In this document: piece by piece, positions 25,161 to 52,856 of the stretch | Numbering within the stretch: position 1 is the first letter of the stretch | Layout of the letters: every line of letters starts with the position of its first letter | Assembly: GCF_010389155.1 (NCBI RefSeq) | Contig: NC_057763.1 | Span: forward strand, 10,602,649-10,666,648 | DNA: 64,000 bases | Direction of reading: 5' to 3' | Source: Erigeron canadensis | Lineage: Eukaryota > Streptophyta > Magnoliopsida > Asterales > Asteraceae | Program-made: the position numbers and the translations under genes | The notes under the pieces: generated by a model | Seen by the model: only the letters and a program-made list of their open reading frames with translations | Told to the model about the DNA's origin: nothing | The model's database searches: none

Positions 25161-25165
25161 ACTAT
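25161..25165. repeat. CopB target-site duplication, left (ACTAT)
   Basis: ACTAT directly before the left LTR, repeated at 31622-31626. Confidence 0.85.
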
Positions 25166-26131
25166 TATAAGTCCCAAACTATTGCTAGATGGGTGCTGAA
25201 GACACCTCTATGTCAATGGCGAGTGAACTTTGCAACACAATCAATTAATCTGGACTTGACCAGTTTAGATTGATTGTGTACTAGGTTAACTGGAGGTTTA
25301 CTTATTAAGATGACAGTATGAATAAGTAAATACAAAAAATGACAAGTATATAGATTGGTGAGACAATATGTATTTTTCAAGTGTATTTTATTTATTGATT
25401 GTTTAAATAAAATACAAGGTTGTTGCGGACCCAAGATAATACAAGAATGTAAATATCTTAACAACCTATGAAATACAATTGATCTATACTTGAAAATTCT
25501 CCTAAACAATCGAAACACTTAGAGTTGTGAAATGTTCCTTTTTGCGATTGAGAGAATATTGCACAAGTTCACCAATATTGCAGAATGTATGTATTTGCTT
25601 AGTTGTGAAAATGTTTGTGCAAGGACCTCTATTTATAGTCGAACTATAAGCATTGGGATCTCAACTTCGACGTATAAATATGGTTGACAGCACACAAAAG
25701 TATTGTTAAATAATCCTTTGTGTGTGCTAAATAAAGTAAGACAAAAGGTTACTTTATTCAACCACTCTACATCTTTGCACTTTTATCCACAGACAAGATT
25801 ATTGTCCGGGTAAAAGGATGTAGTGTAAAAGGTCCTCATCGTAATCAGTGTAAAGCTTTGTAAGAGCATTTACACTGGAGGATTCTCCAGTTGATTGATT
25901 TGGTAGATTTTCAACTGGGCTTCGCTTTCATTGCCAATCTCTGTCTTCCATTTGTTGTCTTCGACTTCAACTGGAAGGTCTTCAGATTCTAGTCTTCAGA
26001 TCTCAACTGGAGGAAGTCATCAGTTGCTTAAACTGTACGATGCAACTGGACTTTTAATATTTCGGACAACTCTTCATGCTCTCCAGATGCAACTGGAGAG
26101 CTCCAGTTTTCAGCCAAAACTGGACCTAACA
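25166..26131 (-). repeat. CopB 3' LTR
   Basis: 966 bp. The outer end is TATAAGTCCC (TG expected); the inner end is CCTAACA. It has many CAACTGGA/TCCAGTTG words in inverted pairs (about 25872-26130), for example ACTGGAG-GATT-CTCCAGT. The 101-codon minus frame inside is LTR sequence, not a gene. Confidence 0.93.
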
Positions 26132-26146
26132 AATTCCCCCTAATTG
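26132..26146 (-). other. CopB polypurine tract
   Basis: On the minus strand CAATTAGGGGGAATT, directly next to the 3' LTR. Confidence 0.88.
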
Positions 26147-26406
26147 TCCTGAAATATTACCAAGTGTTTTCAAACTTGTTTCTATACAAGTATGAGTTTG
26201 AAAAACTTGAGTTTGATAAAACCTATTAATTTTCCAAGGCATTTTTATCGATCATCAAATGCCTTGGGTTTGATTTTAGTTGTTTGTAGATTTTATCACT
26301 ATCTATCTTGTTGGTTACAATCTGGTAACTTGTACATACAATAATTTTACAATGAAGTTACAAGAAAGTAAATAAAATTCAGGTAGATAGAAAAGAAGGA
26401 AAAACT

Positions 26407-28467
26407 TCAAGTACGTGGCCCTTCGCCAGTTTTCCTACTTTTGGCAACAGATGAAATCAGTTGTTGATCTTCAGGATCCAAGCCAAGTCTTTTCTCAACA
26501 TCTTCCTTGAACTTGATCAGTCGTTGCAACACAAAGATCCAACCTTTTTCAACCTTGTTTGTATGCTGCCTAGCATTCAACAAATCCAGCATCTCCACCA
26601 CTTCACTCTGACCATACTGATGAACATCAGGGTTCTCAGTTATCAGCTTGGCACCTTGCCAGTATTGAATAGCCACCACAAAGTGCTTCACACCAGGCTT
26701 CATTGTTACATTAATTTCAGTTATTTTGCCTGGCTGATATCTTTGCTGAAGTACTGCTTCCAGATAAGCACGAGCATTAGATTCTTTTTCCAGTTTGATA
26801 TGGGCAGTACTCATCTTTTGCACAGCAGCTCGAACATCTTCAGATGAAGGTTCAGTGTGTGTGGGTTCCACCCAAGTCCTCAGGTTTGCATCTCTTGGCA
26901 AAGCCTTTTGTTTTCTACCCTTAGTCTTGGGAGGGTTCAACACTTGCTTGACAATTTTGTGCACTTGCTCAGTTCTTTTCAAAATTCCCTCAGTCCTCAG
27001 TTCCTTTGCCTTCTCCACTGACACATTCAAACATTTGGCATCTAGACTGGCGTCATCATCTTGATAATGTTTATCCAGTTCTACCTCCAGCATTTCATTC
27101 ACACACTTGACAATCCTTGCATCTTCTTTAATTTTTCGATATTCAGTTAACTGAACACCAAGCGATTTTGCATCAGCTGCATCAATAAGAGTGGGTGGGA
27201 GAGTTTTTCTTGATTCTTCTTGATTAATTTTCATTGTTTTCTTTCTCTCCTTCACCAGATACCTAACTCTTGCCAGCTTTTGACTTTCAGTTTCAGTTAC
27301 TGGAGGTAACTGATCAACATTGCCAGTTTTTAGAAGTTCACCAGTGGCCGGCTTATATGAGACTTCATCAGTGGCCTTATCCTTTCCTTTCCTTTTCCTT
27401 TCATTCCCCCTATCAACCACATCATCAAATTCTTCAATATGCCCACCAGCTTCAGTACTGGTGGCAACAACAAGCTGGCTAGCATCAGTACTAGCATCAG
27501 CAACTACCATCTCCTTTCCAGAACTTGAACTTGGAGCTTAAACAAGAGGGCGTGGGGCTCTAACAACAGATCTTTCCCCCTTGGCAACGTCTAGTCCTTG
27601 CCTAATAGCTTCAAAATCTGCTGGACTAGAGGGCAAGCGACCTAGAGGCTGCCATGATTCCATGGACTTGCACTCTTTGAAGACTCCACATATAATGCGA
27701 ACTATCCTCCACAGAGGATTGATCTCTTTTGACTGAGTCATTACATTTCCACTTGTTTGTTCTTGACTCTTTAAAATTTGTTTAAGTATGGAGAGATCAT
27801 CTGGAGAGAGCCCAGTTGCAGGTACTTCCTTAACCACTTCCATCACAACCTCTTTTTCTTTACCAACTTCAGTAGTCAGATTAGATATTGCTGTTGAGTG
27901 ATCAGACACTTTGCTGGCCAGTGTATCAAGACTGCAGCTTAACCGATCGATCTCAGATGTTATGGGAGTGAGATCAACCTGGGGCTCTACAATCTTGGTG
28001 ATCTCAGATATCACCTTTTCCATTAAACTTCTCTCACTGGCAGCCAAACTTTCTTCAATCTTGAGACCCACTAAAGAGGCCAACTGACTTCCAAGCTCAG
28101 TCACATCTAGGCCAGGTTTGTTACATAGTTCTTGCACCTGCCTTTCCAAGTTCTTGATATCAACCTCTGATGATCTGACAGTATTGTTCAGCAGGTTGGT
28201 TATTGAAGATGTGACTCCAGATTGAGTCAGTGCGAATGCCTCCCTTAATAATGTTGCCAGTTGGTTGGAGGATTCCACTAACTCATTGAGCTTGCCAAAC
28301 ACCAAGTTCTCATTGGCTGAGAACTTATTTATCCCCAGGTCAACCACTTTGACATTCTGCATATGATCCTTTTGGTACCTGGAGAGGGACTTGGTGTTTT
28401 TATCCAGTGTCTTTAGAATCTCCTCAACCCTGATGAGAAGGTTAGAGATCGGCTTGGAAAGACACAA
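26407..28467 (-). pseudogene. CopB ORF3-type tail: coiled coil and C-terminal domain
   Basis: One frame from 28467 to 26407, interrupted by a single TAA at 27538-27540. Upstream it is joined by a frameshift to the frame ending at 28442. The N-terminal half is helical and coiled-coil-like (NLLIRVEEILKTLDKNTKSL, many Ser/Leu heptads). The C-terminal half has KIKEDARIVK, LPRDANLRTW, YQPGKITEI, HFVVAIQYWQGA and YGQSEVVEML. CopF (61865-63760) shares these in the same order, including NLLIQVEG and RDADLSTF. No enzyme motif. It may be a structural or nucleic-acid partner of the element particle, but the function is unknown. Confidence 0.8.
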
Positions 28468-29725
28468 ATTGGCTTTCCAGTGACGGAGGAGAAGGTGTCA
28501 CTGGACCAGCTCTAAAAGCTAAAGGTGCAACTGGACGAGGTATGACAATGTTTGGTTCTCCAGTTGCAGTAGCATCAGTTGATAGAAGAGGAGGGGTTGT
28601 AGAAATGATGGGAAGAGATTCAAGTTGTCGTTCATGCTGAGAATGCTCAGGTGTGAACGACGGTGACGGTGGTGTTAGGATGTGTCTATTTCTAGGCACT
28701 CCCATAGAAGAAAGTAGTTGACGAGAGGCAAATACTTGAGGTATTTCTATGCTTTGTAAGTTTAGTGGGGAAACTAAAACTTGTGGTTCTTGGGTCTGAT
28801 CAAGGAAAGAAGGGAGCCGGGTCAGTACAGATGCATCGGCCATTTCCTGATCAGATTCAGTCTCAGATGAGTCCGAAGACTCAAGCTGAAATTCACCCTC
28901 ATTCAAGCCAAGATCCTCGAATGTTAGGGGTGGCTGAACAAGTTGTTCAGGCTCCTGATGACCAGTTTGAGTTTCCTCAATGGTTTCATCAGTTTGCGGA
29001 ATTTCTTCCTGAAAAGAGGTCACTTGTGCCTCAACCACAACTGCTCTTTCCTCAGTCATGGCATCATTGGCCGTAGAGTTTGGATTCTCAGTCTCCAGCT
29101 GTGACTGGCCGAAGACTTCGTCAGCTCGTGCAAGTAGAGTGTCAGAATTTTGGCTATTTAAGTTTTGTACAGACTCAGACTCTACTCTGGGTTGGGCTGA
29201 CCCAGTATTAACTTCACCACCCTCACCTACAGAAGTTTCGAGGGTGGTTGCTTGTTGTTGGTCCCTTTGACTTTCTTCAGGTAATTGTTGGGAAGTACCT
29301 GAAGGTCTAGGTGGGACACTATCGTCAGTTTGGGCCATCATGCACTTCTTCTTTTCTTTTTCTTTTTCTTGATCAAGTGACATGAGGGCAATCTGAGCCT
29401 TGAGCTTCTTGTATTTAGCCTTATAATCATCAGATTTAACAAAGTTAGGAACAGATGGACCAGTTTGGTTGTTCATCTGACTAGATCTGCATTCCTTCAT
29501 GAAATGACCTTTCTTGCCATACTTGTAGCATGTAAGATTGGCCTTGTCCAGAGAGTTGGAACTGGAAGCATTATTGGACCCATTAAATCTGTTAGATTTA
29601 TGCTTAAACCTGTTGAAGGTTTCAGCAATCATGGCGACCAGATCATCATCGTCAGTTTCCTCACAACCATTACTGAGATCAGTATTGAGGCCAGAATTCA
29701 ATAAACTATTTAACATCTCCTTCAT
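28442..29725 (-). CDS. CopB gag zinc-knuckle region fused to acidic, proline-rich sequence
   Basis: 427 codons, open. Residues 1-60 match the end of a copia gag (EETDDDDLVAMIAETFNRF). Residues 66-79 are a knuckle, CYKYGKKGHFMKEC, in which the second Cys is Tyr (C-x2-Y-x4-H-x4-C), so zinc binding is doubtful. KYKKLKAQIALMS follows, as in CopD. From about residue 130 it is disordered, rich in Gln, Ser, Glu and Pro, where a pol-bearing element would continue to protease. The first Met is an internal gag codon, so the true start is probably in the upstream gag frame. Confidence 0.75.
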   Translation of the reverse strand: MKEMLNSLLNSGLNTDLSNGCEETDDDDLVAMIAETFNRFKHKSNRFNGSNNASSSNSLDKANLTCYKYGKKGHFMKECRSSQMNNQTGPSVPNFVKSDDYKAKYKKLKAQIALMSLDQEKEKEKKKCMMAQTDDSVPPRPSGTSQQLPEESQRDQQQATTLETSVGEGGEVNTGSAQPRVESESVQNLNSQNSDTLLARADEVFGQSQLETENPNSTANDAMTEERAVVVEAQVTSFQEEIPQTDETIEETQTGHQEPEQLVQPPLTFEDLGLNEGEFQLESSDSSETESDQEMADASVLTRLPSFLDQTQEPQVLVSPLNLQSIEIPQVFASRQLLSSMGVPRNRHILTPPSPSFTPEHSQHERQLESLPIISTTPPLLSTDATATGEPNIVIPRPVAPLAFRAGPVTPSPPSLESQFVSFQADL

Positions 29726-29811
29726 AGAATGTGACTGGACATTCTCAATAGATATTAAAGCAGCACAAGGTTGCCCAGTTAGACTGGCAACCTTGGAATT
29801 CTAAGCATGGT

Positions 29812-30603
29812 TTAAAGCATCTTGCTCAGCCACCAGTCTTGCAGCATTGTTATCTTCAGTGAATCTGAAGGCTCCAAAGAGAGATGCAAGGTCTTTCCTT
29901 GTCTTAAGACAAGAACCATGTGTGCCCATTTTGATGGCAAAATATCACAAAATTTCTCAAGAAGGATGTCCTTATCCATCTCAATCCCTAAGCCTCTTAG
30001 TTGATTAATCAAACTGGTGAACCTGGTATAGGTATTCGTCAGGCTTTCATTGGGAAGAGCAAAGAAGGTTTCATACTTCTTATTGAGAGCAACCTTTCTG
30101 GTGGAAAGAGTGTCAGCTCCACCTTCAAACTGGAGAACCAGTTCTTCCCACATGGATTTAGAACTGGGATACAAAACAAGGGTAGGAATTAATTCCTCTG
30201 GAACTGCAGCAAAGATCATGTTTTTCAGTCTGGTATCAAGGTTAACCAGTCTGCGATCCTCATCTGTCCAATGTTCTTCAGATTTTTCCCTTGAACCTCT
30301 TCGCCCAGTTGGGTCAAGAAGAGGACTAACACCACTGTACATGGGTATATATGGTCCATCCTTGAGGATTTTCAACATATACCTCTCTATTCCACCAAAA
30401 TGCAAAAGCATTCTAGCTTTCCAAGTACCAAACGTATCCTGGTTTCCATCGAATTTGGGAACAGGAGTATTTGAGTAATGGCCATGCACGTGGCTAGATC
30501 CAGGAATAGTTGGAGGGGGAGGAGGAGGATTAGTATTTAAAGGTGTAACATTAGAATTAATTTGTTCATTAGGACCAGAACCATTCTCACCTTCAACAGC
30601 CAT
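29812..30603 (-). pseudogene. gag: CopB gag, N-terminal and capsid part
   Basis: The start at 30603 follows the primer-binding site by 45 bp (MAVEGENGSG). It has a proline run then VPKFDGNQDTFGTWKARML, the gag N-terminal pattern also in CopD, EEHWTDEDRRLVNLDTRL, a core with MWEELVLQFEGG and RKVALNKKYETFFALPNESL, and VLVLRQGKTLH. The frame is lost after that and picks up again in the frame at 28442-29725. It would form the particle shell. The gag type differs from CopA and CopC, placing CopB with CopD and CopF. Confidence 0.88.
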
Positions 30604-30647
30604 CGAAGCAGACCTAGGTTATAGAATTGAAACAATTCAACCTGCCT

Positions 30648-30659
30648 GCTCTGATACCA
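30648..30659 (-). other. CopB primer-binding site (initiator Met tRNA)
   Basis: Minus strand TGGTATCAGAGC, two bases from the 5' LTR. Confidence 0.93.
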
Positions 30660-30661
30660 CT

Positions 30662-31621
30662 TGTAAGTCCCAAACTATTGCTAGATGGGTGCTGAAGACA
30701 CCTCTATGTCAATGGCGAGTGAACTTTGCAACACAATCAATTAATCTGGACTTGACCAGTTTAGATTGATTGTGTACTAGGTTAACTGGAGGTTTACTTA
30801 TTAAGATGACAGTATGAATAAGTAAATACAAAAAATGACAAGTATATAGATTGGTGAGACAATATGTATTTTTCAAGTGTATTTTATTTATTGATTGTTT
30901 AAATAAAATACAAGGTTGTTGCCGAACCAAGATAATACAAAAATGTAAATATCCTAACAACCTATGAAATACAATTGATCTATACTTGAAAATTCTCCTA
31001 AACAATCGAAACACTTAGAGTTGTGAAATGTTCCTTTTTGCGATTGAGAGAATATTGCACAAGTTCACCAATATTGCAGAATGTATGTATTTGCTTAGTT
31101 GTGAAAATGCTTATGCAAGGACCTCTATTTATGGTCGAAGTATGAGCATTGGGATCTCAACTTTGACGTATAAATATGGTTACACAAAAGTATTGTTAAA
31201 TAATCCTTTGTGTGTGCTAAATAAAGTAAGACAAAAGGTTACTTTATTCAACCACTCTACATCTTTGCACTTTTATCCACAGACAAGATTATTGTCCGGG
31301 TAAAAGGATGTAGTGTAAAAGGTCCTCCTCGTAATCAATGTAAAGCTTTGTAAGAGCATTTACACTGGAGGATTCTCCAATTGATTGATCTGGTAGATTG
31401 TCAACTGGGCTTCGCTGCCATTGCCAATCTCTGTCTTCCATTTGTTGTCTTCAACTTCAACTGGAAGGTCTTCAGATTCTAGTCTTCAGATCTCAACTGG
31501 AGGAAGTCATCAGTTGCTTAAACTGTACGATGCAACTGGACTTCTAATATTTCGGACAATTCTTCATGCTCTCCAGATGCAACTGGAGAGCTCCAGTTTT
31601 CAGCCAAAACTGGACCTAATA
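30662..31621 (-). repeat. CopB 5' LTR
   Basis: 960 bp, starting TGTAAGTCCC. It matches the left LTR except for scattered bases and a 6-bp gap (near 31180). The outer end reads CCTAATA where CCTAACA is expected. Confidence 0.93.
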
Positions 31622-32089: not shown

Positions 32090-32094
32090 CCTAT
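32090..32094. repeat. CopC target-site duplication, left (CCTAT)
   Basis: CCTAT before the left LTR, repeated at 55908-55912, 23.8 kb away. It shows that everything between is one insertion plus later insertions into it. Confidence 0.9.
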
Positions 32095-32642
32095 TGCAAG
32101 TGCACGTCTATGTCAAAAGCAGTCTAGATTGTTTGGGCTTATATTGTAACATGTCTTTGTCATGTGATTGTCATTAATGAACTTTGTATTATGCATAGAA
32201 TTCTAGATTAAGTTTAAGTATTAAATGTATAATTAACTCTGCTAAGGAGGAAATACGACCTCGTAATTGAAGGGTCAATGACGAGGTGGACATAGGAATA
32301 TGACCTCATATTTGTAGGGACAAATACGAGGTGGGACACAATTACGACCTCGTAAAGGTGTTGAGCTCGGTAGGAAATGTGAGGTCGACTCGCTGAAGTC
32401 CAGATCGTGTTTCCTGTAAATACAAGAACCCTAACAAAGATTAGGGTCGAACATTTTTCGAATTATCAAGCATATTTGTGCAGGTTAATAGGTCAGAGGT
32501 CGTTCCGCTAGCCCCCAGAAGACCTGCGATGCAGCAGGTGATCAAGGGGCTTTCGTTGTGAATCACCACATCATAGAGAGGGATTCCACACCTCTGGATA
32601 ATGGGATCAAACTATTAATGATCCGCGTCAAGGGGACTTACA
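32095..32642 (+). repeat. CopC 5' LTR
   Basis: 548 bp, TGCAAGTGCACG...GGACTTACA (the other copy starts TGTAAG). U3 holds repeated TACGACCTCGTA-type words, including TACGACCTCGTAATTGAAG at 32254-32272. It pairs with 55360-55907. Confidence 0.93.
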
Positions 32643-34528: not shown

Positions 34529-34689
34529 TTTCTCTCAAAGAACTTAAAGTTATTTTTTGTGTCTTTGTAGTGTATGTCGTACATAGATAGAGTCATTAAA
34601 AATACAAAAAGAGTTGGCTTAGTATAAGTTTGTATATATCTAGTGTCAGAAAAATACAAAAACTTTGAAAAATAGAAAATCCAAAAATA

Positions 34690-35600
34690 TGAATAAAGTA
34701 AGGTTACTGCGCTAAATGATGAGAAGTGACGATACTTTAGCTTTTAAGCCTGCTTAATCGTAATATAACTGATTAGTTCAGTGATTACAATTTGGGATAT
34801 ATCGGTAGACACAAAGTACCAAGGTTTCCTTCAATCTGAACTTAAATTATATAATGTTCTTGTGGGAAACATATTCAGATATATGGCTGAGATTGCTTGC
34901 TTTTCAGTAATGAATTGATCTAGTCCTTAAATTTTGTGAAAGATCTAGCATTACTATAAGATTTGTTCAATGAATAGGCAAGAACCTCTACCAATCATGA
35001 GTATAAAAGTAAATGTGATATTGTTATGCAAATCAATTGAATGCAACTTAAGGGGCTAATGTGGTCTTTGAGATTCGGACAAGTATGTCCTCAGGGTATC
35101 TTTGTATACCTAGCCTACCTAAAGCTTCCAACTTGGGATAGGTTGTCAGAAAGTTCGCTACATGGATCTCATAGAAAATCACGGGTTCCTTATAAATCAT
35201 GAAATGCAGAAGCAAATATGTGAAATCACAAAGTAATTCAATTCAGTTATCCACAAAGTGTCCCATGGTTGGTTAAGGATGTTCTTGAATACATTGAATA
35301 TTTTTTATCTTAGTGCTTGTATCGATTACGAAAGTATATCTGAATGTGGGTTACATAGGTTCGCAAACTATTTAAATGGCATATTAGGCTACTCGGGTTA
35401 CATGGTGACTGTCCTTGGCCAGGGTGTACCGAGTGTTTAAGAGGACAAACATACCGGTAATCGCTGTTGGGTCACGGTTCATAACGTATAATAAGAGAAT
35501 TATTTCTCACCCGCAGGCTTATGTAACATGCTAAACTGATCTAATCAGTAGTAATCACGCTTAATGTGAATAATGTATAAAGTCTAGTTAATTAGAATTT
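34690..35600 (+). other. Conserved post-pol non-coding block, CopG copy
   Basis: It holds TTTTAAGCCTGCTTAATCG, CACAAAGTACCAAGGTTTCC, TGTTCTTGTGGGAAACATAT, then a nearly invariant core at about 35102-35195 (GTATACCTAGCCTACC, AGCTTCCAACTTGGGATAGG, TTGTCAGAAAGTTCG). It ends with TTATTTCTCACCCGCAG, an acceptor-like sequence, and GCTTATGTAACATG. It matches 46850-47840 and the CopA block; the core is far better conserved than LTRs or spacers. Confidence 0.78.
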
Positions 35601-36780
35601 AGATTAGTTTATTATTCTGCAATTTTTATTCTGTGTTATTTTTCTTTTTAATTGAGTCAAAATAGTATTTTTATAAGTTCTTATTGCACGAGAGATCCTA
35701 TTTAAATTCTGAGTATATGTTTTGCTGAATTCCTTCATGTGAATTTTTAATGAGGTTGTGTGGATTGTTTACAAAGAAGATTTTCTAATATGGACATTAA
35801 TTTGTTTAAGTTTAGAAAATGATCTTTTCAAGTGTTATGTGAAATGTCAAAGTTAGTTGAAATTTCATAATTTTCACTTGTCACCAAGTTATTAATCGAG
35901 TTTGTTTAAATTTGTGTGGTGACATTTTAGGGTTTACCAAGAAATGACCTCCCTTGATCTTTTGTTAGATTTTTAGTTATTTCATATTTGTTAACCCTGA
36001 TTGAGTGTGATTGTAACTTGAATTTTCTACATTATACTGTTTGTTCTCGATGCGTTGATGAGTTCTGTGGTAAGTGTGCAGTGTTCAGGTTAAGAAGATA
36101 ACAATGGAATGCTGATTTCTATTACTACATTGTTATTTACACGGATGATATCATGATGATAAGATCCTTGGTGTGTAGTGATCGTATTTGTGATGCAGAT
36201 TTGAGCATGTGAAGGATGAATACATGAACTTGTTTTTGGAATAGTTATTTATTTATAATTCATGTATTTAATGAAAATAATCAAATTTGACACTAGTTTC
36301 TTTTGAATTTCGTGTTGTGATTTATGACAACCTTTTGGATATTTTCCTAAGTCTTCAGTGAATTTGTGTTGGATTGTTCATTGTTTGTTAGTTTTGTAGA
36401 CGGCATCTAGTATGGGACTTAAGTGTTTCAAGATGGTTTGCTGTCATGCATATCTATGATCCAAGGAAGTTCTCGGTGTCATAATCAAATTGGTAATGAG
36501 GTTCATATTTAAATTGATTATTTTCAGGTTTGTTTATGGATAGCGTTTAAACCATGGGTTTTCATTCAAGATTATCATGTTCGGTTATCTACTTACATTA
36601 TGATTATGAATTTGGGTGATAAGCACGCTTTTAGTACAAGGCATGAACAGGTTGCTTTCTAACGAGTTTTTTGCTATGTACAGATTGTGATAAAGGGTTG
36701 TGTTTTGGAAGATTGCTTGGATGAAAATCTGAAAATTTTTCAGAAACTTGCTGAACTCTGGATTATTTTCTGATTTGTTG
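35601..36780 (+). other. Spacer between post-pol block and ORF3 promoter (CopG)
   Basis: No coding region recognised. AT-rich. It starts with AGTTCTTATTGCACGAGAGA (about 35677), shared with the other families after the block. The minus-strand 79-codon frame at 36585-36824 has no recognisable content. Confidence 0.6.
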
Positions 36781-36909
36781 TTACGAAGATAACTGTTATC
36801 TTCGTTCGAAACAATTTTGTTCAAACGAAGGATATCTTCGTTTGGCTAACTTCGTTTGTGAAGTTAAGCCCGATCCATAGTTGGCCCATTGTTATTTCCA
36901 TATATAAAG
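36781..36909 (+). promoter_or_regulatory. Internal promoter of CopG ORF3, resembling the LTR U3
   Basis: Inverted repeat ACGAAGATAAC-T-GTTATCTTCGT (36783-36805), a second AAACGAAG-GATAT-CTTCGTTT (about 36823-36843), a TTGGCCCATTG site-II-like box, then TATA (TATATAAAGG, 36901-36910). The CopG LTR has the same order: AACGAAGATA-n5-TATCTTCGTT (40978-41002), AAACGAAG-n5-CTTCGTTT (41009-41029), GCCC boxes, then TATATATACG. About 130 bp of leader follows to the proposed donor. Confidence 0.65.
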
Positions 36910-37042
36910 GGGTTTTTCTTCGTTACTTCTTCATCAAACGAAAAATACTCTCATTTTCGAGCAAAACCCTAAAACACAAACTCTTTTCTTTTCTCTCACT
37001 CTAATTCGTTTTTCTTGATTCGTTGTGCAAACTGTGATCTAA

Positions 37043-37694
37043 GTAAGTGTTTGATGTTCTTTTCATTCACGAAAACGATTTAGGTTTTCCATGTATCTTC
37101 GATTTGATTTATTTTGATTATGTTTATAAATTCTTGTAATCATTCACCTGGTTTACTCAAACGAATTTAGACTTGTGCAAACGAATTTAGACTTTAGTTC
37201 AAAACGAATTTAGATGTGTGCACATGGACTTAGATTTTGAATTGAACGAATTTAACTTGGGTAGAAACAAAGTTAACTTTAGATGATGCCTTACGAACTT
37301 AGACCTAAGTTGATAAGGAACGAACTTAGCTAAGTTTAACACCCTTCGGTTTATTCAAACGAACATAGACTTCGTTTATAAGTTACGAACTTAGAAGATA
37401 AGTTATATAACTTACGAACTTGCATGTACAGTTTAGACTTTACGAACTTTAAATTCGCTAGGTGAAAATTTAGGTTTAATTCTTACGAACTTAAGATCTA
37501 TTTTCGTTTAGTTATTGCTTATGAATTTAGCTTCTATCTTCGTTCTGTATACTTAACGAATTTATTGTTTATCTTCGTTCAGTCTTATTTTGCGAAATTA
37601 TGGATTAGGGTTTTTCAAATTAGGGTTTTTCAATTCTGTAATTCATTTATCGTGATTATTTATACTTGTTTCGATATTTTGGTTGGTTTTGCAG
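37043..37694 (+). other. Putative 5'-UTR intron of CopG ORF3
   Basis: Donor GATCTAA/GTAAGTG at 37043; acceptor GGTTGGTTTTGCAG ending at 37694, followed by AA and the ATG. 652 bp, non-coding, crowded with AACGAA(T/C)TTAG words. CopC has the same donor context (AATCTAG/GTATAT) and the same acceptor-to-ATG spacing. Confidence 0.55.
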
Positions 37695-37696
37695 AA

Positions 37697-39334
37697 ATGG
37701 CTCTCGCTCCACCTCAGTTTGTGAAAAAGCATAATCTTGCACTGAATCTAGATCCCGATCAGCACAATTGCGAGCATTTTCATGAAATGTTCAACTATAT
37801 TGCTCGCTCGCGATTATCTTTTGCTTTTTGTGATTCGCCAAGACTGGTTAGGCAGTATATTGATTCTTTCTGGTCCACTGCTCATGAAGTCATGGTTGAA
37901 GGACAGAGTTTTGTACGTGCTACTATTGAAGGCACATCTTTTGATTTCAATGCTGAATCGCTCCGCACTATTTTACATCTAGGAGCAGAACCAAACGTCG
38001 AAGAAGAGGAAGACGTTGAGATGACATACAAGTTCGCACTTCTTCTTCGTTGCTTTCAAAGGATGGGATTTGTTGGACAGGTCAAGCTTCCTTTCGACAA
38101 AAGTGGGTTTCAAGGACGATGGCGTTATCTAGCATATGCATTGCTCGTCTGTTTGAGCAATCGCAAGGCTGGATTTGATCAACTGTCTGCTCAGATTGCA
38201 TTGCAGATGGTTGCTTTGGTATATAATCGACCTTATCCTTTCTCCCGATACTTTTATCAAGAATTTATTGATCAGATTAACGCTAGGGGGAGAAAGCGAT
38301 TTCTTTTGTATCCTCGCTTTGTGATGGCTATAGTTAGACATTTTTGTCCTGACTTAGTATATGACCAAGGTCCTCGCTACGTTCTTCATGCTTGGCCTTC
38401 GCGTCTTTTTGCTGATCTTGAAGCCAATACGAGTAATGTGGCTGGTCTCCATGATCCACCACTTTTTGGTCACCTGATTAATCCAAACTATCGATCTCGT
38501 ATTGAGAATGATATGTTTGTGGATGATGTTGATGCCGATTCTGATTCTGGTTCTTCTGAGAGTTCTGTTGATGGTTCTGATGATGATTCAAGGGATAAGT
38601 CTGCTGGTTCGGATGATGGACATGATGGAGATGATGTTGATAGTTCCGACGGTTCTGCGGCTACAAATGCGACAGACACAGATGATTCTGCTCCTGCTGA
38701 ACGTCGAACTAAGATGATTCATGACGTCGCGGCTGCTTCTGAAAGTGATCATTCGCATCAGTCGTTTGATCAAGAGGGTGTTGCGTTTCATAGAGAGCGT
38801 AGAAGCAAGACTTGTCATGCTATTCCTGCTATTTCAGATTCAGCTAACTCCACTCCTACTGCTCCTGCGATTGATCCTGATGTTGCAGCTCAGCATGATT
38901 CTGAATTACGTGAGATTTTTGAGGATATGGAAGATCCTGTAAACAGAGAAAGTTCGGTTAGTCCGGCGAAGAGGCAAGGGAGTGTTGAACTTCAATATAC
39001 CAGAAATAAGCGTCGACGTGTTGTTGAAGCTTCTTCTGTAGCAATGCCTGATCCTCCAAGACCGACTGCTGTTGTTGCTCCTGTTCTTGGTCGTCGTGTT
39101 GATCTTTTGGAGACCAGAGTTCGCACTTTGGAGTCTGATCTCACTGATACTCGCGCTGCCTTAACCTTTTTGATCAACTGGGTCAAGAATCAAGGGGGAG
39201 AAGTTCCTGAAGAGGTCTGCAGATTGTCAGCGGTTCAACCAAGACGTCAGAATGACGATGATGATGCTGATAATGCTGGTGAAAGGAATGTTTCTCGCCC
39301 AGTTGAAGATAGAGGAAATGGTGCAGCGATCTAG
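37697..39334 (+). CDS. CopG ORF3, intact third gene downstream of pol
   Basis: 545 codons from the ATG at 37697 (MALAPPQF). The open frame extends upstream into the proposed intron, so the Met at 37565 is unlikely. Residues about 1-270 form a globular domain: FHEMFNYIARSRLSFAF, DSFWSTA, GRWRYLAYALLVCLSNRKAG, FDQL, QMVALVYNRPYPFS, KRFLLYPRFVMAIV, then DPPLFGHLINPNY. Residues about 275-350 are Asp/Ser-rich acidic. Next come a basic KRRRVVE stretch and a coiled coil (VDLLETRVRTLESDLTDTRA). No protease, helicase or membrane segment is visible. It is homologous to ORF3 of CopA and CopC. The acidic, basic and coiled-coil layout would suit a nuclear regulatory or particle protein; this is inference. 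Confidence 0.82.
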   Translation: MALAPPQFVKKHNLALNLDPDQHNCEHFHEMFNYIARSRLSFAFCDSPRLVRQYIDSFWSTAHEVMVEGQSFVRATIEGTSFDFNAESLRTILHLGAEPNVEEEEDVEMTYKFALLLRCFQRMGFVGQVKLPFDKSGFQGRWRYLAYALLVCLSNRKAGFDQLSAQIALQMVALVYNRPYPFSRYFYQEFIDQINARGRKRFLLYPRFVMAIVRHFCPDLVYDQGPRYVLHAWPSRLFADLEANTSNVAGLHDPPLFGHLINPNYRSRIENDMFVDDVDADSDSGSSESSVDGSDDDSRDKSAGSDDGHDGDDVDSSDGSAATNATDTDDSAPAERRTKMIHDVAAASESDHSHQSFDQEGVAFHRERRSKTCHAIPAISDSANSTPTAPAIDPDVAAQHDSELREIFEDMEDPVNRESSVSPAKRQGSVELQYTRNKRRRVVEASSVAMPDPPRPTAVVAPVLGRRVDLLETRVRTLESDLTDTRAALTFLINWVKNQGGEVPEEVCRLSAVQPRRQNDDDDADNAGERNVSRPVEDRGNGAAI

Positions 39335-39586
39335 GGGGAGACAGGAGGTGATACTTCTCAGCAAGGTGCTTCTGATTCTGGTGCTCCTCGTGATTCAGGT
39401 TTCTAATTTTGTCTATGATAAAGATTTTTAGATAGAATGTATAATTGATTATGTGTAATAAGTTATGACATTTTGTGTAATAAAAATGTAATTTATCTTA
39501 TTTCAATACAAGTACATTTCATCTTTATTATAATTATCATGATTATTCTTTCTATTCTGGTGTTCATTTTGTGTAAATTTAAATAG

Positions 39587-40666
39587 ATGATCCAGATTAT
39601 ACAGATTTATTCTTTGATGGTGATGAGCTCGAGGAAGGCGAATTTGTCCCTGAACCAAATCTAGATATATTCAAGAAGCCTTATGGGACTCAATTCCTGA
39701 AGATTCGTTGATTCAAGAGAATAGAGTGTTGGATCAGAAGAGATCAGAAGTTAGGGAAAGAATGCTTCAAGTCCCATTCAGCAGCCTAACTCAAGTTCTA
39801 CATTTTGTTGTGTATGCTAAGAATGGTGATGTGTCGATTCAAGTGATTAATGTGACAAGACCATTTAATTCAAGTGATTTTCCAGTTCCTCTCAAAGATG
39901 ATGATTCATTACATATTGTTGATCGACGTGTTCCCGAGAAAAGAGTGAATGATTGGATAGTACATAGGGAAACGTGGAAACCAAATTTGTATTGGACTCA
40001 TATCTCAGATAAAGATGCTGCAAAGTACAAGACAATCATCTGGTGTTGGTTTTATGATGATGAATTGAAGCTGTTTGTGCTTAAAAGACCAGAAGGTTGT
40101 CAGTACTTAGCGTGGTGTGAGAGACATTTCAGAATTTATGTGAAGAAGATTTACATGAGCTTGGAAATAACTGGATTATCAATCCAAGTGATGATGGCTT
40201 AGCTGATGTTGTTGGTAAGAATCTCAGAAAAGATTTCTGGTTAAGGAAGAACATGAAAGATTCTGATAAACCATAGTTTAAGATTGAGCCAAGATCGAAG
40301 AAAAGAGTGGTTAAGCCAGATAAAACAGTTGAGTTTGTTCAACATGATATTAAGTGCATGATCAAGGTCCCTGCCAAGAAATGGGCACAAGATGTCTTGG
40401 ACAAGATGGATAATTGGGAAATTAATTGAAATTCTGGTGAAGCCAAGATGTATGCAGATTCAAAGAAGAAGATTTTGTTGAGAAGAGTTTATGATCCGAT
40501 GCAGCTGGTGAACTTCTCAAGAAATGATTTGAGAAAGTTGTACGATACAGAGTGTTCGTTCTTGCCATTTTGGAAGCATGAAGAAAGTAGATATCGTAAG
40601 ATACTTCAACTCTGCTTACATGAAGATATTCATGCAAATAGCAAAAGATTGTTGTTTGATAAATGA
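39587..40666 (+). pseudogene. CopG fourth coding segment (ORF4, or second exon of ORF3)
   Basis: After a possible intron (donor TCAG/GTTTCT near 39399; acceptor AAATAG at 39586), coding text begins DDPDYTDLFFDGDELEEGEF. It goes on, after a frame change near 39670, with VLHFVVYAKNGDVSIQVINV, KRVNDWIVHRETWKP and WCWFYDDELKLFVLKRPEG. Then after another shift come KKRVVKPDKTVEFVQHDIKC, WAQDVLDKMDNWE, VYDPMQLVNFSRNDLRKLYD and LQLCLHEDIHANSKR. Two frameshifts and two stops break it. I do not recognise the family. Its place before the 3' LTR matches the C-terminal sequences in CopB and CopF. Confidence 0.55.
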
Positions 40667-40705
40667 TCAGATTTTGAAGACTAAGAAATCGAAGGTGCTG
40701 CTATC

Positions 40706-40716: not shown

Positions 40717-41355
40717 TGTTGATGCACGTTGATGTGACAACAACAACTTAGATTTGATATGTCGTTTAGATTAAGACATTATGTTAGTTTATGTCGTATC
40801 TATATATGTAATTGATAGATTATGGACTTTATGTTTTGGTAATGATCGATTACATGTTTTGGTGTTATATATATGTGTTATGTATGGTGTTTGTTGTGTG
40901 ATATACAAGTACAAACATAATATGTGTTAGGATTCCATAAGATGAAACACTTAGGAATATAACCAAGTATTACATCTAACGAAGATAAGATATATCTTCG
41001 TTAGGGGCAAACGAAGATAAACTTCGTTTAGTACAAACAAAGATTAACTTCGTTACATGGGCTGGGCAGCTAAGTTCGTAAGAACAAAGCCCGGCAAGCC
41101 CAGTTCGACCTGAAACATATATATACGAATGAATACCCTAATAATACACACACATTCGACATACACGTACTCCAGACATCTAAGTTCGTTCTATAGCTTA
41201 TAGAAACGAATATAGCATTATACGGCTGATTATTTACTTGATAATTAGCGATATACCCGTTTACTAATCAAACTAGTTATCTCGTGAGGATTCCGCACTC
41301 ACGACATAATCATAGACGATCTCGAGAGCGATCTGTAGCTATCGAGGGACTCACA
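40717..41355 (+). repeat. CopG 3' LTR
   Basis: 639 bp, TGTTGATG...GACTCACA. The U3 hairpins of ACGAAG/CTTCGT type and a TATA (41117-41125) are clear. No second copy is in the window. The following AATATTTCTG leads straight to the CopC gag ATG without a primer-binding site. Confidence 0.8.
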
Positions 41356-41365
41356 AATATTTCTG

Positions 41366-42674
41366 ATGGACCATGAAACCGAAAAGGCCAACTCACCACC
41401 AAAGTTGATAAGCCTTGACAGATACTTCAATTGGAAGGGCAAATTCGAGTCCTACTGCAGGCTGATGGATGTGAGGATGTGACTGTGTATTACAAAGGGT
41501 TATACTTCTCCTACAGTACCAGGTGAAACTCCAGGTTCGAGCACTGCTAGGCTTGCTTCATATGAGCAAATGGACGTCGATAAGAAAAAAGACTATGAAG
41601 CCAAAAGCAAGGCATTGGGCTCGCTTCGAATGGCTCTCCAAGGGGAAGTTCTGCATCTGTTTTGAAAAGTATGATACAACAAAAGGCTTATGGGATGCAC
41701 TCAAAGATCATTGTGAAGGTGACGACGATCTCAAGAAGAGTAGGAAAGACTTATTGAATAAGCAGTATTATGTGTTCACTAGCTTCAAAGATGAAACTCT
41801 TGATGAGACACTGGTTCGTTACAGACATTTGCTGGTTGAGCTTGCCTACTTCGGGTATAATCCACATCCAGAAAACATGATCGAGAAGTTATTGGAGGCA
41901 CTTCTTATCAAATGGGAAGGATTTATCACTTTTATCCAACAAAATCCCGATTTCAGCAAATGATTATTGGAGGCACTTCTTATCCTGGAACAGATTATTC
42001 GAAAGCTGAGAAGCCAAGATATGAAAAGAAAGTTGAAGGAAGCAGGCAGCAGTGATTTTGTTCAGCGTCATGAACTCTATCATAGCAAGCAAAGCATTCC
42101 TTCCTCAAGATCCTCAAGTGGAGGGATTACTGCCTTCTATAGTGGAGATGATGAGAAAATGAAGAAGACGATGGATTCTGACAATAGCTTGTTGTATGTA
42201 AACTCTCCGGAATCAGTGATTGTTGTGCATAATGGTAATCAGAACAGTAGTTTTCCATGCTCGGGTTTAACAGGTATGCCGATGAGCATAAGATCTGCAG
42301 AGGGACATCTGGGCATGCTCGCTTCTTTTGTGTCGGCTCATGAAAAGCATGTTGGAGGAAAATCGACTGATCCTGAACTAGTTAGGGAGGATTACAAGTA
42401 AGTTGATCCAGACGATCTAGAAGAAATGGACCTGAACTGGCAATTGGCTATGTTAACATTGAGAGTTCAGCGTTTCACTGATAGAACTGGAAGGAAGGTG
42501 AATGACAACAAAGTAGGGTTTGATAAAACCAAGGTCAAGTGTTTCAACTATGATGACTTTGGACATTTTGCACGTGAGTGTCAGATGCCAAGATGGGATA
42601 GCAATTCAGTTACAGGTCGTCAAAACTTCAATCAAGGTGGTTCCATTGCTAGTCAGAATTCTGGGCGTCCATAG
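41366..42674 (+). pseudogene. gag: CopC gag
   Basis: Start MDHETEKANSPPKLISLDRY, then FNWKGKFESYCRLMD. There is an early in-frame TGA, then a one-base shift near 41660. After that comes one frame with GLWDALKDHCEGDDDLKK, DETLVRYRHLLVELAYF and SQDMKRKLKEA, stops at 41961-41963 and 42399-42401, and a zinc knuckle, [14 protein letters not shown], in which the second Cys is Tyr. A 21-bp segment (41889-41909) is repeated at 41964-41984 around one stop. The frame then shifts before protease. It would form the particle and bind RNA. Confidence 0.9.
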
Positions 42675-43344
42675 CTCAGGAGAGATCGACAACTCAAGAG
42701 CATTAGTGGTTCAGTCTGATAGTACATATAATTGGGGTTCGACTAGTGCCGATGATCAAAATCATGCATTCATGGCTGAAAGTCAAGACTTTGATGGAGG
42801 GATGAACGATCTTGTTGATAATTTATTCGACTATACATTGTATGCCAGCTCGGATGAACATAATAGTTTTCATCAGAAGGTAGAAGAGGAACCGGAAACA
42901 TCAGAACCACTAAGAGCAAGTAACAGTGCTGCTGAGACAGGGTTCATGGCACACTTGGAAGTCATTGAACAACCGGAATCACTAAGGAAAACTACAGGGA
43001 TGTGGTTTGTCGATAGTGGATGTTCAAGACATATGACAGGAGATAAGAGATTGTTAACTGAATTTACTACTGTTAGAGGTTCGTATGTCAGTTTTGTTGG
43101 TCCCAAGGGTGGTAATATCTCTAGTATTGGAAAAGTCATCAATGGGAAGATCAAAATTGACAACGTGAATTTTGTTGAGCAACTGGAGCATAACCTGATG
43201 AGTGTATCTCAGATATGTGACAAAGGGAATCCAGTTCTTTTTACTGAAAGGGAGGCTCTAATTTTGAAACCAGGTTATGTCATTCCTGAGGAATGGATTC
43301 TGCTGAAGGCTCCAAGGAAGAAAGACATCTATGGATTAGAATAA
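42675..43344 (+). pseudogene. CopC aspartic protease
   Basis: Acidic linker (DLVDNLFDYTLYASSDEHNS) followed by WFVDSGCSRHMTGD with the DSG active site, FVGPKGGNISS, LEHNLMSVSQICD and LKPGYVIPEE. It ends in a TAA after KKDIYGLE, after which integrase goes on in the same frame. No second zinc knuckle lies between gag and protease, unlike CopA. Confidence 0.9.
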
Positions 43345-43347
43345 GGT

Positions 43348-43943
43348 GTGGTTGATTCGGTGGAGCCAATATGTTTGTTGACAAAAGCTTCAGAAGATGA
43401 ATCTCTGCTATGGCATAGAAGGATGGGTCATATTCATTTTAGAAAAATGAATCATATTACCAGCAATGAATTAGTTCTCGGTGTTCCTAGCAAAAGATTT
43501 ATGGTGGAGGACAAGTGTGTGCCATGTTTAAAAGGAAAACAGACTAAGAAGCCACACAAACCAAAGACCCTGAATTCTATTATCGCTCCATTTCAGCTAC
43601 TACATATGGATCTATTTGGGCCAGTAAGCGTTCGAAGCATAGGGTATATGTACTACTGCCTCGTAGTTACTGATGATTACTCTAGATTCTCGTGGGTGTT
43701 CTTCTTGAAGACCAAGGATGAAACTGCTAAAATCCTCATGGAGTTTCTTGAAAGGGTCAAAAATCAATATAGCACAAGAGTGAAGAGAATCAGAAGTAAT
43801 AACGGGACAGAGTTCAAGAATTAAATTATGGAAGTTTACTGTATGAGCAAAGGAATTGAGCATCAATTCAGTGCACCCTATGAGCCCCAACAGAATGGAG
43901 TTGTAGAGAGAAAGAATAGAACCTTGATAGAGACTGCCCGAAC
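43348..43943 (+). pseudogene. CopC integrase, N-terminal and core part
   Basis: Pre-integrase HHCC region LLWHRRMGHIHF...CVPCLKG, intact here, then core HMDLFGPVSVRS, TDDYSRFSWVFFL and QQNGVVERKNRTLIETART. The second catalytic Asp is Asn: IRSNNGTEFKN, codon 43798-43800, where CopA has SSDNG. A TAA stop follows at 43822-43824. At 43944 the gene is replaced by a copied gag segment, so the C-terminal half of the core is missing. Confidence 0.92.
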
Positions 43944-44376
43944 CATGTTGGAGGAAAACCGACTGATCCTGAACTAGATAGGGAGGATTACAAGCAAGTT
44001 GATCTAGACGATCTAGAAGAAATGGACCTGAACTGGCAATTGGCTATGTTAACATTGAGATTCCAGCGTTTCACTGATAGAACTGGAAGGAAGGTGAATG
44101 ACGACAAAGTAGGGTTTGATAAAACCAAGGTCAAGTGTTTAAACTGTGATGACTTTGGACATTTTGCACGTGAGTGTCAGATGCCAAGATGGGATAACAA
44201 TTCAGTTACAGGTCGTCAAAACTTCAATCAAAGTGGTTCCATTGCTAGTCAGAATTCTGGGCGTCCATAGCTCAGGAGCGATCGACAATTCAAGAGCATT
44301 AGTGGTTCAGTCTGATAGTACATATAATTGGGGTTCGACTAGTGCCGATGATCAGAATCATGCATTCATGGTTGAA
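43944..44376 (+). repeat. Gag zinc-knuckle segment copied into the integrase gene
   Basis: 433 bp matching 42348-42780 of the same element over its whole length with few differences. Seams show short homology: CATGTTGGAGG on the left, which also fits integrase text, and GTTGAA on the right. The copy keeps the intact knuckle [14 protein letters not shown], whereas the resident gag has Tyr for the second Cys. Both carry the same frame break after GRP. Template switching during reverse transcription or gene conversion would explain it. Confidence 0.92.
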
Positions 44377-46849: not shown

Positions 46850-47840
46850 ATAAAAGGAGTAAGGTCACTGTGTGAAGATGATTAGACGTGACGATACTTT
46901 AGCTTTTAAGCCTACTTAATTGTACTGTAAAATTGTTGTGTTCAGTGACTCCATTATACGATGTATCAATAGGCACAAAGTACCAAGGTTTCCTTATAAT
47001 CTGAATTTAAATGTATACAATGTTCTTATGGGAAACATATTCAGATTTATGGCTGAGAATGTCTGCTCTATATTTAGAGTATGGTCCTTAAATCTTGCAA
47101 AAGATCTAGCATTATAATTATGTATATTTGGTTGTTATATAGAAGGTCTCAGGTACATACATGTGTATGTATTGCTTTTTGGATGTATACTTGTGACAAG
47201 ATACGCAAATATCTAATAAATCTTTTGAAAATTATGGAGCTAATGTGGCCTTTGAGATTCAGACAAATACGTCCTTGGGGTGTCTTTGTATACCTAGCCT
47301 ACCTAAAGCTTCCAACTTGGGATAGGTTGTCAGAAAGTTCGTTACACAGGTCTCATAGAAAGTCACGGGTTTCCTAAGCGCTTTAAAATGATGTCACAAA
47401 TATGCAAGTACTTAGCATTATGTAATGTTGAGTATATTTCCGTATGATGAGTCAAGTTATGTCGCTTTTTGCGTGTGAGGAATCACCGACCTGTCACCGC
47501 TAACTTGATTCTTAAAGACCGTCTCCCTTTAGTTACCAAATGTCTTAATCGTAGTGCCTGTGTCAATTGTGAGAGTATATCTGAATGTGGGTCACTTAAG
47601 TTCGCAAACTTGATTATATGACATATTAGGCTACTTGGGTTACATGGTGACAGTCCTTGGCCAAGGTATGTCGAAAGTGTTACAAACCAAAAGGAAACTG
47701 GAAGTACCGAGTGTTTAGGAGGACAAATATATTGGTAATCGTCTTGGATCACTGTTCGGAACTAGTAATAAGAGAATTATTTCTCATGTGGGCTTATGTA
47801 ACATGCTAAGTTGATCTAATCAATACAGTACTTTAGCTCT
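46850..47840 (+). other. Conserved post-pol non-coding block, CopC copy
   Basis: TTTTAAGCCTACTTAATTG, GGCACAAAGTACCAAGG, TGTTCTTATGGGAAACATAT and the core at about 47279-47375 (TTTGTATACCTAGCCTACC, AGCTTCCAACTTGGGATAGG) are present in the order seen in CopG and CopA. Near its end TTATTTCTCATGTGGG lacks the CAG that the other two have. Small open frames inside are not shared between copies. Confidence 0.78.
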
Positions 47841-48160
47841 TGTAACTATGTTATTCGTTTATGTTCGTGTGCGTCTGTGTGTGTGTGTTATGTCTCGTAA
47901 AATGTGTTTAATTTTTATTTATGATTGTATTGCTTAAATAAAAGTTCCTATTGCACGAGAGACAGAGTCAGAACAGAATCTCGTTTCCAAGAGGACTCAA
48001 CTACGTTCTTATGAAACAGCGAATAAACGAGTAGGGTAGTTAAGCGATAGTGAAAGGATCAAAAGCTAAAAGAAAGTTGGTTAATTAACAAGATATAGGT
48101 TTAAGGAAAAGAATACAGTGTTGTTAATTTCAATAAACAAATATTAGGTTAATGAAAATT

Positions 48161-48425
48161 TCTTGAAAGGAAGATTTTCCTAAGAATGAACACTGAGATG
48201 TTCATAGTTTTGAATTTTATCTTTGAAAGAAATGTTTTTTTTCTTAGAAAGAAGATTTTCTTAAGAATGAACACTGAGATGTTCATAGTTTTGAATTTTA
48301 TCTTTGAAAGAAATGTTTTTATTCTTAGAAAGAAGATTTTCTTAAGAATGAACACTGAGTTGTTCATAGTTTTGAATTTGATCTTTAAAAGAATTGATTT
48401 AATCTTTAGAAGGAAGATTCTCAAA
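48161..48425 (+). repeat. Minisatellite, three units of about 81 bp
   Basis: Three copies of a unit containing AAGAATGAACACTGAG, TGTTCATAGTTTTGAAT and CTTTGAAAGAAATG, each with small differences. The unit length is a multiple of three, so both strands stay open and show a repeated peptide, which I take as a by-product. Confidence 0.88.
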
Positions 48426-50439
48426 TGATTAAAGAGGATATGATTAATAGTTTGAGAATTATCCTTGAAAAGATCTGTTTTAAATCAAAAAGATTTGATG
48501 CAGAGATATCAAATGATTTTGACCTAATCTAAACGTGCTTGACGGTGAATTATAGACCTTAATATGACCTAGGTTAATAATAGATTGTTAAGCAGATTCA
48601 TTTATTTTATCTTGCTAAATTATTCATTTCTTCAGATTGTATGTTATTACTTTGAGAAGATATGATGATTTTTTTTTGAGATGTGAAGGACATCAAACAG
48701 ATGCTTAATTTTGTAGGTTGTCAAGCAAGTTCTCAGCATGGAAGCAAGAAACACGAATACACAGAGATGTATAGGTCATATTTTCAGCAGAGATAAATAC
48801 TAGTATGATGAGGCAATCATAGAGATATTTATTATTGTTATTCAATTTAGCCAAGATGTAATATTCTTATGATAAGGTAATCATGTATTACATATGGCAT
48901 GTGATTTTTGCCCAAGATCTTAAAATGGGATAATTCATGAAGATTTGAAATTTGATAGCATTCGGAACATTTTAGGTCAATGCAAATAAACTTTTCGCCA
49001 AATCCGCGTCGAAAAATTTAGGAATTATCAAAATTTTCTTATGATCATGATATCCAAAGATTACATGGAACTCAAAGTTTCATGAGAGCATACCTTAGTG
49101 ACAAAAATTAATGATTATCTCTGATGCAAAAGTATAAGTGATTATAGTTTCAGTTAGATGATTTTACTGAGTTAAAGTCAAGCAACTTTTGAAAGAGTAA
49201 TCTATATAGATTTACATTGTATAAATGGAAGAACTCAGGGTAGTTTATCCATAGAATTTAAGTGGAGGACCTTAAGGTAGGTTATCCACAGATATAAGTG
49301 AAAGACCTCAGGGTAGGTTATTCATTGTTAACATAGAATAATAAGACATAGTTCTTAAGGTTCTAACTCTCTGATAAGTATCAATAGAGTAGTAAGACAA
49401 AGTTCTTAAGATTCAAGATTGTTGATAAATATCCTTAGAATGATAAGATCGAGATGTTAAGATTCTTGTTTTCTTTATGATTTGACGGATTGATTATATA
49501 TCTATAGGTCAATCCCTTAGAACGATAAAACAGGGATTTTAAGGTTCTTCACAGCAAAGTCGACGATAACAATATGTTTAAGTCGCATGAAGTATTATTG
49601 TGTAGTTCTAGACTAAGATAAGGTCATAAGGATCTATGACTTATAATAGTAAAGAAAATCAAATTAGGAGAAGAAAACGAAAAAAAATGTAGGTCTAGAT
49701 TCAGTCATTGCTGTTATAGTGATGAAATAATGAAGAATAACATTATCATTTTTATCTTTGTTTATATTTTTGAGCTTGGTTGTGCAGGTTTTAGCACAAA
49801 GAAGTTTAATGAAAAGTCTAAAAGACTTATATCATTGTTTCAAAACAATTCTTTGTTGTTTGGAAGCTACACATATGTTTTGTCTGACGACTTGAAAAGT
49901 GATCAGAAGAAACATTCAGATTTTTGAATATTAGAGACAAATAAATTGTTTTTGAAACAGAATGTTCCATGATCCTGAAGTTTGAGCTTCAAATCTCAAA
50001 GTTTCTGGTTTTCATGATATTAAACTAGTAATGGATTGATTGTTGGAAATTCAACTCCTCTATCACATGTCGGTTATACAAGGCGAGCAGGGTCTCGGGA
50101 TATGCTTAATACGGAGAGATTTATCGTTGAGGGGAGGACTACAACAAGCTTTGGTGGATTAGTTGATTGTTATGAGATACAGAAAGTTTGAAGTTTGCTG
50201 TTTAAATCTGAAGTTTCAGGATATCAAGTTTCGGGTGTGGCAATTAATTTTGTTGTCTCAAAATTATGTTTTTAAGTGTATTTGCAGAAAATTCAATCTA
50301 AAGGAAGGAATTTTGAGCAAAAGACTGAAATATTCAAAACAAGGCTAAGATCATCAAGTTAGCATCATTCGCTTTGACATGGTTAATGTTGACCTTGCTC
50401 TGATACAGGTTTAACGAGATGATTATAGCAATGTTTAAT
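48426..50439. other. Non-coding CopC spacer
   Basis: No recognisable gene. It holds loosely repeated GACCT(C/T)A(G/A)GGTAGGTTAT words (about 49240-49325) and TAAGACAAAGTTCTTAAG words (about 49340-49470). The 65-codon frame at 49730-49927 has a hydrophobic start but no homologue I know. Confidence 0.55.
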
Positions 50440-52854: not shown

Positions 52855-52856
52855 AA

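Follow-up and report, generated by a model that had tools for sequence, protein, structure and literature searches.

A third gene with a leader intron and a candidate promoter of its own downstream of pol in copia elements of Erigeron canadensis

How a gene lying between pol and the 3′ long terminal repeat (LTR) of a copia retrotransposon is expressed, and what its protein might do, is the question raised by this locus. The window, a stretch of 64,000 nucleotides of Erigeron canadensis DNA (contig NC_057763.1, positions 10,602,649 to 10,666,648), is filled by nested copia elements. Three families, CopA (minus strand), CopC and CopG (both plus strand), each carry in this position a homologous open reading frame, termed ORF3. 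Taken as a whole, the evidence is best explained, and we hold this with slightly more confidence than doubt, if SIRE-type copia elements carry ORF3 as an accessory gene that has its own promoter and encodes a palindrome reader resembling the DNA-binding protein VANC21. Genome searches covered the 426 Mb plant assembly containing the window.

The leader intron and the gene behind it

Reading of the CopG sequence placed a donor, ATCTAA|GTAAGT, with the intron starting at 37043, and an acceptor, TTTGCAG, ending at 37694, just ahead of the ORF3 start codon at 37697. Of 367 candidate places for CopG copies in the genome, 40 were scored; one was the window itself, and the other 39 were fetched and compared. 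The intron was present in 37 of these and absent from one (L047); in another (L009), less than half of it was covered. The L047 alignment runs from 36105 to 37042 and then straight to 37695, with ATCTAA joined to AAATGG and only one possible placement of the gap. L047 lacks exactly the predicted intron with its GT–AG boundaries, and the CopG leader intron has thus been spliced in vivo. This genomic fossil (1 of 39 copies) bears out the spliced leader of the original prediction: RNA of the CopG family underwent splicing at the sites predicted and was then reverse-transcribed.

The exact spliced junction had a single match genome-wide, at the L047 place; there were also one match with one mismatch and 19 with two, versus 13 in the control, and the exact match alone was counted. 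That the gap arose by chance deletion, with donor and acceptor as coincidences, is hardly credible: the breakpoints fall precisely at GTAAGT and TTTGCAG, both named beforehand, no sliding is possible, and GTAAGT is intact in all 37 other intron-bearing copies in which it is covered, where the nearby intron differs by 6–7%. What speaks for a deletion is that a single such copy was found and that L047 also lacks 38540–38664, perhaps through deletion between short repeats. The acceptor AG was kept in 36 of 36 copies listed; the donor diverged by 0.9% versus 7.3% in its flank and ranked 26th in conservation among 901 12-mers of the region. A genome search for the CopC spliced junction gave no exact match, and four matches with two mismatches versus 0 and 0 in the control. 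The CopG intron also contains six ACGAA(C/T)TTAG repeats (37161–37394), whose reverse complement occurs twice in the LTR, once on each side of the TATA box.

The homology of the ORF3 proteins was confirmed (CopA/CopG, 40% identity over 174 residues, E 2e-40; CopC/CopG, 36% over 105 residues, E 2e-19), with an N-terminal domain (N-domain) of about 275 residues in common. Among the 39 copies, the N-domain diverged by 2.1% at first, 2.3% at second and 7.6% at third codon positions, and intron 1 by 6.2%. Since positions 1 and 2 vary less than position 3, the frame is under purifying selection, in support of the earlier view of ORF3 as an accessory gene.

CopG ORF3 occupies 37697–39404, with the N-domain at 37697–38521 followed by an acidic region and a KR-x10-KRRR cluster. 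The original prediction ended the gene at 39334, which had to be revised: the TAG at 39332 occurs in this copy alone, the 36 other copies that cover the site having GAG in 33 cases and TAG in none, and coding similarity runs on to about 40639. The C-terminal part lies at 39592–40680 (3′ end approximate), its frame broken in this copy; residues 736–946 of a related protein, P0007, match 40002–40639 in two frames. Between the two parts lies an AT-rich, intron-like gap (39398–39591) with low copy divergence (2.2%), in frame on both sides relative to P0007, which could be a second intron or a read-through gap. Frame and homology fit a second intron, yet the gap is retained in L047, which lost intron 1, and we make no claim for it. 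In CopC, ORF3 spans 52857–54876 and is interrupted by stops; homology extends to 53686, and the remainder, an open frame, is presumably part of the gene. The CopA homology, likewise stop-interrupted, covers 2535–3356 and probably continues toward the LTR.

Relatives were found in 18 database proteins, the named sources being E. canadensis and Smallanthus sonchifolius (Asteraceae). Four of them (P0001, P0002, P0007 and P0008) have acceptor-compatible residues before the start: they read A-E-M or A-D-M, which would put C-N-G two bases ahead of the ATG, a reading made from protein rather than DNA. P0014 and P0018 have different residues there, and the other twelve proteins do not include that part. 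Two Smallanthus gene models, which are predictions and not transcripts, fuse pol to ORF3, with pol reaching to one residue before the ORF3 methionine in P0018 and about eight to ten residues of uncertain placement separating the two in P0014. A search of viral contigs with P0001 gave 13 pattern matches, none coding for a relative.

The candidate promoter and its likeness to the LTR

Palindromes, a TATA box, a leader, the ATCTA(A/G) context and a CAG two bases before the ATG were present in all three families at the positions originally given, and in each the internal TATA lies 35–71 bp past palindromes of the LTR type. In CopG, palindromes at 36783–36805, 36822–36844 and 36847–36866, recognized by a dyad scan and by sharing with the element's own LTR, precede a presumed promoter at 36880–36908 that consists of a GGCCCA box and the TATA box TATATAAA (36901–36908), as judged from sequence and copy divergence. 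The presumed leader exon 1 (36930–37042) takes its 3′ end from the intronless copy, and its 5′ end would lie about 30 bp past the TATA box. In CopC, the region 51769–51864 holds a palindrome (51769–51784) and a TATA box (51855), followed by a putative donor, ATCTAG|GTATAT, an acceptor CAG at 52852–52854 and the ATG at 52857; the presumed intron, 52022–52854, contains additional TACGACCTCGTA palindromes at 52376 and 52445. CopA, on the minus strand, has the palindromes TGCTGACGTCAGCA and GCTGACGTCAGC (4153–4140 and 4131–4120) upstream of a TATA box at 4074, a putative donor context ATCTAG at 3910–3905, an acceptor CAG at 3361–3359 and the ATG at 3356, giving a presumed intron at 3904–3359. The predicted donor-like site thus stood in part: the context is found in all three families, and the GT following it in two, this copy of CopA reading ATCTAG|GATAGA. 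Acceptor-like GTGCAG words also occur in mid-spacer in all three families (36070–36110, 4690–4640 on the minus strand and 49780–49800) and could serve a second splice.

The TATA box TATATAAA was intact in 33 of the 35 covering CopG copies listed and diverged by 0.7%, versus 5.5–8.2% in its flanks. Palindrome centers were more variable than outer arms: divergence across the 39 copies was 1.7% for the eight outermost bases at each end of palindrome 1, and 3.3 and 22.9% for the arms and loop of palindrome 2. In a CopC-like copy, L049, which is 86% identical over 51796–53000, TATA, donor, acceptor and palindromes are unchanged; TACGACCTCGTA occurs there in four places near ORF3 and in three within the LTR. 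Conservation of the TATA/acceptor layout therefore holds for the copies compared, namely those of CopG and this one CopC-like copy.

The spacers also share short words with the LTR of their own family. The numbers of spacer 10-mers found in the own LTR were 22 for CopA (7.0 expected), 54 for CopC (8.6) and 45 for CopG (5.8), values reached in 0 of 300 shuffles. These words belong chiefly to the palindromes and, in CopG, to the intron repeat as well. Between families (LTR/spacer), the counts were 17 for CopA/CopC (19.0 expected), 3 for CopC/CopA (2.5), 1 for CopC/CopG (3.3), 10 for CopG/CopC (15.0) and 11 for CopG/CopA (5.1; 16 of 300 shuffles); the exception was CopA/CopG, with 20 (8.2; 0 of 300 shuffles). 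The layout suggests an internal promoter before ORF3, probably built like that of the LTR from family palindromes and a TATA box.

The original prediction saw no likeness between the spacers or LTRs of different families. This does not apply to the first ~0.9 kb after pol, where CopA and CopG are 87.7% identical over 798 bp (pol, about 75%); beyond it, blastn between families found no likeness, and none between the LTRs. This non-coding block lies at 34641–35547 in CopG, 46858–47822 in CopC and 6078–5130 (minus strand) in CopA, and in all three pairs it is more similar than pol (78–89% versus 71–75% identity in blastn pieces). Its sense strand folds more stably than shuffled sequences (z −5.0 in CopG, −2.1 in CopA and −3.7 in CopC, 20 shuffles each; CopG antisense, −2.4) into a long rod-like structure in these three sequences. 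RNAalifold gave 232 pairs, 28 of them with double-sided changes, the covariation term contributing no more than −3.05 of −163 kcal/mol. One idea is that the block forms a structured RNA domain that may, for example, help unspliced genomic RNA escape.

CopG lies within CopC and is missing its 5′ part; the segment 32643–41360 is this truncated element, nested in the CopC leader, with AATAT at 41356–41360 as a possible target duplication. Its 3′ LTR, left unreported in the original prediction, is present at 40717–41355. It was located through the polypurine tract AGGGGGAG at 40707, and the palindrome core of the CopG promoter was then found in it (palindromes 40976–41004 and 41009–41029, TATA 41118). 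L047 and its upstream flank, L048, carry the same LTR pair, 94.7% identical, and together make up an element that runs from a 5′ LTR through gag, pol, the post-pol block and ORF3 to a 3′ LTR. The CopC LTRs (32095–32642 and 55360–55907) are 91.6% identical and flanked by the target-site duplication CCTAT (32090–32094 and 55908–55912), the 3′ LTR having a palindrome at 55607–55620 and a TATA box at 55680. Those of CopA (13428–12755 and 1995–1319, minus strand) are 94% identical; the 3′ LTR includes the palindrome TGACGTCA (1698–1682).

Elsewhere in CopC, a duplication of about 436 bp in gag-pol (42345–42780 and 43941–44376) is 96% identical, and repeat arrays lie in the spacer (48159–48481) and the leader intron (52480–52784). 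A further minus-strand element at 25165–31619 has LTRs of about 960 bp, 97% identical, and a gag-like frame followed by long open frames; the open-reading-frame list held no pol-like frame of at least 150 residues there. Two 128-bp copies, 99% identical, stand side by side at 19254–19509. An Rfam scan of the window at gathering scores gave zero matches.

Predicted fold of ORF3 and relation to known systems

The best structural match of the predicted ORF3 structure was VANC21 (PDB 9lnj), a DNA-binding protein, which makes a VANC21-like fold a candidate for ORF3. Foldseek returned no match at E 0.001, and VANC21 was not among the 50 listed of its 226 matches. A sequence-profile search of the PDB gave seven matches, none convincing (best E 0.63). 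DUF1985 was not among the Pfam matches of the 18 members, and hhalign of ORF3 against DUF1985, using 10 of the 18 DUF1985 genome matches, gave 0.1% and no profile link. Transposase_32 (PF20167) matched the CopG N-domain weakly (17.5 bits, positions 16–174 of 177), as well as four others among the 18 members scanned; all matches, including the best (P0017, 27.8 bits), fall below the curated cut-off of 45. In the accessible part of PMC11728184, the same domain is reported in a sunflower Athila open reading frame.

Like the VANC proteins of VANDAL transposons, as described in the parts of PMC5735166 and PMC10398659 available, ORF3 is a product of the element itself and is paired with short, family-specific motifs in the non-coding DNA. 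It differs in having no detectable sequence similarity to DUF1985, in its LTR retrotransposon host and in the palindromic form of the motifs. VANC recognizes DNA motifs and so counteracts silencing; motif-specific binding and demethylation by ORF3 would be the putative counterpart. VANDAL/VANC and the extra open reading frames of LTR elements are set side by side as an open question in the accessible text of PMC12844716 and PMC11728184. In the literature searched, with subscription papers largely outside the search, there was no prior report that connects an LTR-element frame with VANC by fold or sequence, or that describes this intron.

Several traits connect the three families with SIRE elements (Sireviruses). 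The tract AGGGGGAG, common to Sireviruses, starts 10 bp before the 3′ LTR in all three elements (2005 on the minus strand, 40707 and 55350), and the primer site, TATCAGAGC after CA/A(T or G)TGG, was found as CA/AGTGGTATCAGAGC in CopA and CopC, both of the elements with a 5′ LTR in the window. According to the accessible parts of PMC2829016 and PMC6317226, the SIRE envelope-like (env-like) gene, eORF-3′F, likewise lies between pol and the 3′ LTR, with palindromes before the LTR TATA and before the gene; the former source proposes an internal promoter, which its available text does not identify. A TATA box and a spliced leader intron are identified here. All three families have repeated palindromes in both places, fewer than the published eight or more per element and in no case with the CGG–CCG core, to which Tnd-1 is a published exception (PMC2829016). 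The attachment site reads TC/TG in CopA and CopC and TT/TG in CopG, not AT/TG as published for 20 SIRE/Sirevirus elements, and CopG hydropathy is low. The available portions of PMC2829016, PMC3414828 and PMC6317226 still describe the role of the SIRE "env" gene as unproven. Gene23 of maize Grande is likewise an accessory gene, situated in a long 3′ internal region, with a nuclear product and its own promoter (PMC7264820, in part); it is antisense and unrelated to ORF3 by any test made.

A second promoter, an envelope or an anti-silencing factor

Tentatively, and with rather more doubt than confidence, we propose that the SIRE "envelope-like" gene encodes a sequence-specific anti-silencing factor of the VANC type, each family reading its own palindromes in the LTR and in an intron-bearing second promoter. 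In the explanation that we hold slightly more likely than not, the same family-specific palindromes and a TATA box would make up both promoters. The ORF3 protein would be nuclear, and its VANC21-like N-domain would bind the palindromes of its own family, probably as a dimer, relieving silencing of, or activating, the LTR and ORF3's own promoter. The outcome would be a positive feedback loop rather than an envelope, and co-evolution of protein and site would make the palindromes diverge family by family. Foamy viruses have an internal promoter and the Tas transactivator. Tas would follow this logic, in which a single protein of the element acts on the LTR as well as on the internal promoter; these are animal viruses, and no homology is claimed.

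Several observations call for caution. L047 extends far upstream, and therefore its RNA either had its start in the LTR or was linked to a longer template while being reverse-transcribed; because this copy spans pol and both LTRs, its splice supports the leader intron and gives no support for an internal start. Separate transcription, as originally claimed, is thus favored by the layout (palindromes, TATA, LTR-shared words and copy conservation), not by the intronless copy. The conservation signal of the TATA box is by itself modest (77th of 905 8-mers), and over their full length the arms of palindrome 1 (6.1%) are no better conserved than their surroundings (5.7%). In sunflower SIRE, CG methylation is strongly reduced between the LTRs and CHG methylation stays high, according to the accessible part of PMC12844716; the former would fit anti-silencing, the latter would not, and neither proves anything here.

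We consider it rather unlikely that there is no second promoter and that ORF3 is expressed from the LTR transcript as an env-like message, by splicing and internal or downstream initiation, with the TATA box a chance or decayed feature. The sole spliced copy would derive from such a transcript, as its gag, pol and both LTRs suggest; TATA-like words are common, 14 occurring in the long CopC spacer, the proposed TATA among them; and spliced env-like messages are known from barley Bagy2, as cited in the available part of PMC7264820. However, the removed intron lies entirely past the TATA box and leaves gag-pol before the ATG, so that the splice alone cannot put ORF3 at the front of an LTR message. 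The near-intactness of TATATAAA and its spacing from the palindromes in all three families also argue against this explanation. Still less probable, in our view, is an ORF3 protein of genuine env-like or movement type, with the palindromes as host transcription-factor sites that recur in both promoters. The CopA palindrome TGACGTCA, which we take to be a bZIP-type site, counts in favor of host factors, as does the position of ORF3 in the place of the SIRE env-like gene; the repeated motifs published for Sireviruses mainly matched stress-related sites (PMC2829016, accessible part). Against it stand the palindromes, which differ by family within one genome, the best structural match, a DNA-binding protein as far as the predicted model goes, and the low hydropathy maxima (19-residue means) of five of the seven proteins checked (CopG 1.06, P0001 0.98, P0002 1.17, P0007 1.12 and P0013 0.95), the higher values being 1.50 in P0008 and 1.92, near its end, in P0011.

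The spliced leader makes the internal transcript easily testable. If ORF3 is indeed a VANC-type reader of its family's palindromes, three puzzles would be solved together: the presence of palindromes in the LTR as well as ahead of the gene, their differences between families, and the escape of these elements from methylation. In that case, a single protein fold would serve the DNA transposons and the LTR retrotransposons of plants alike in evading DNA methylation.
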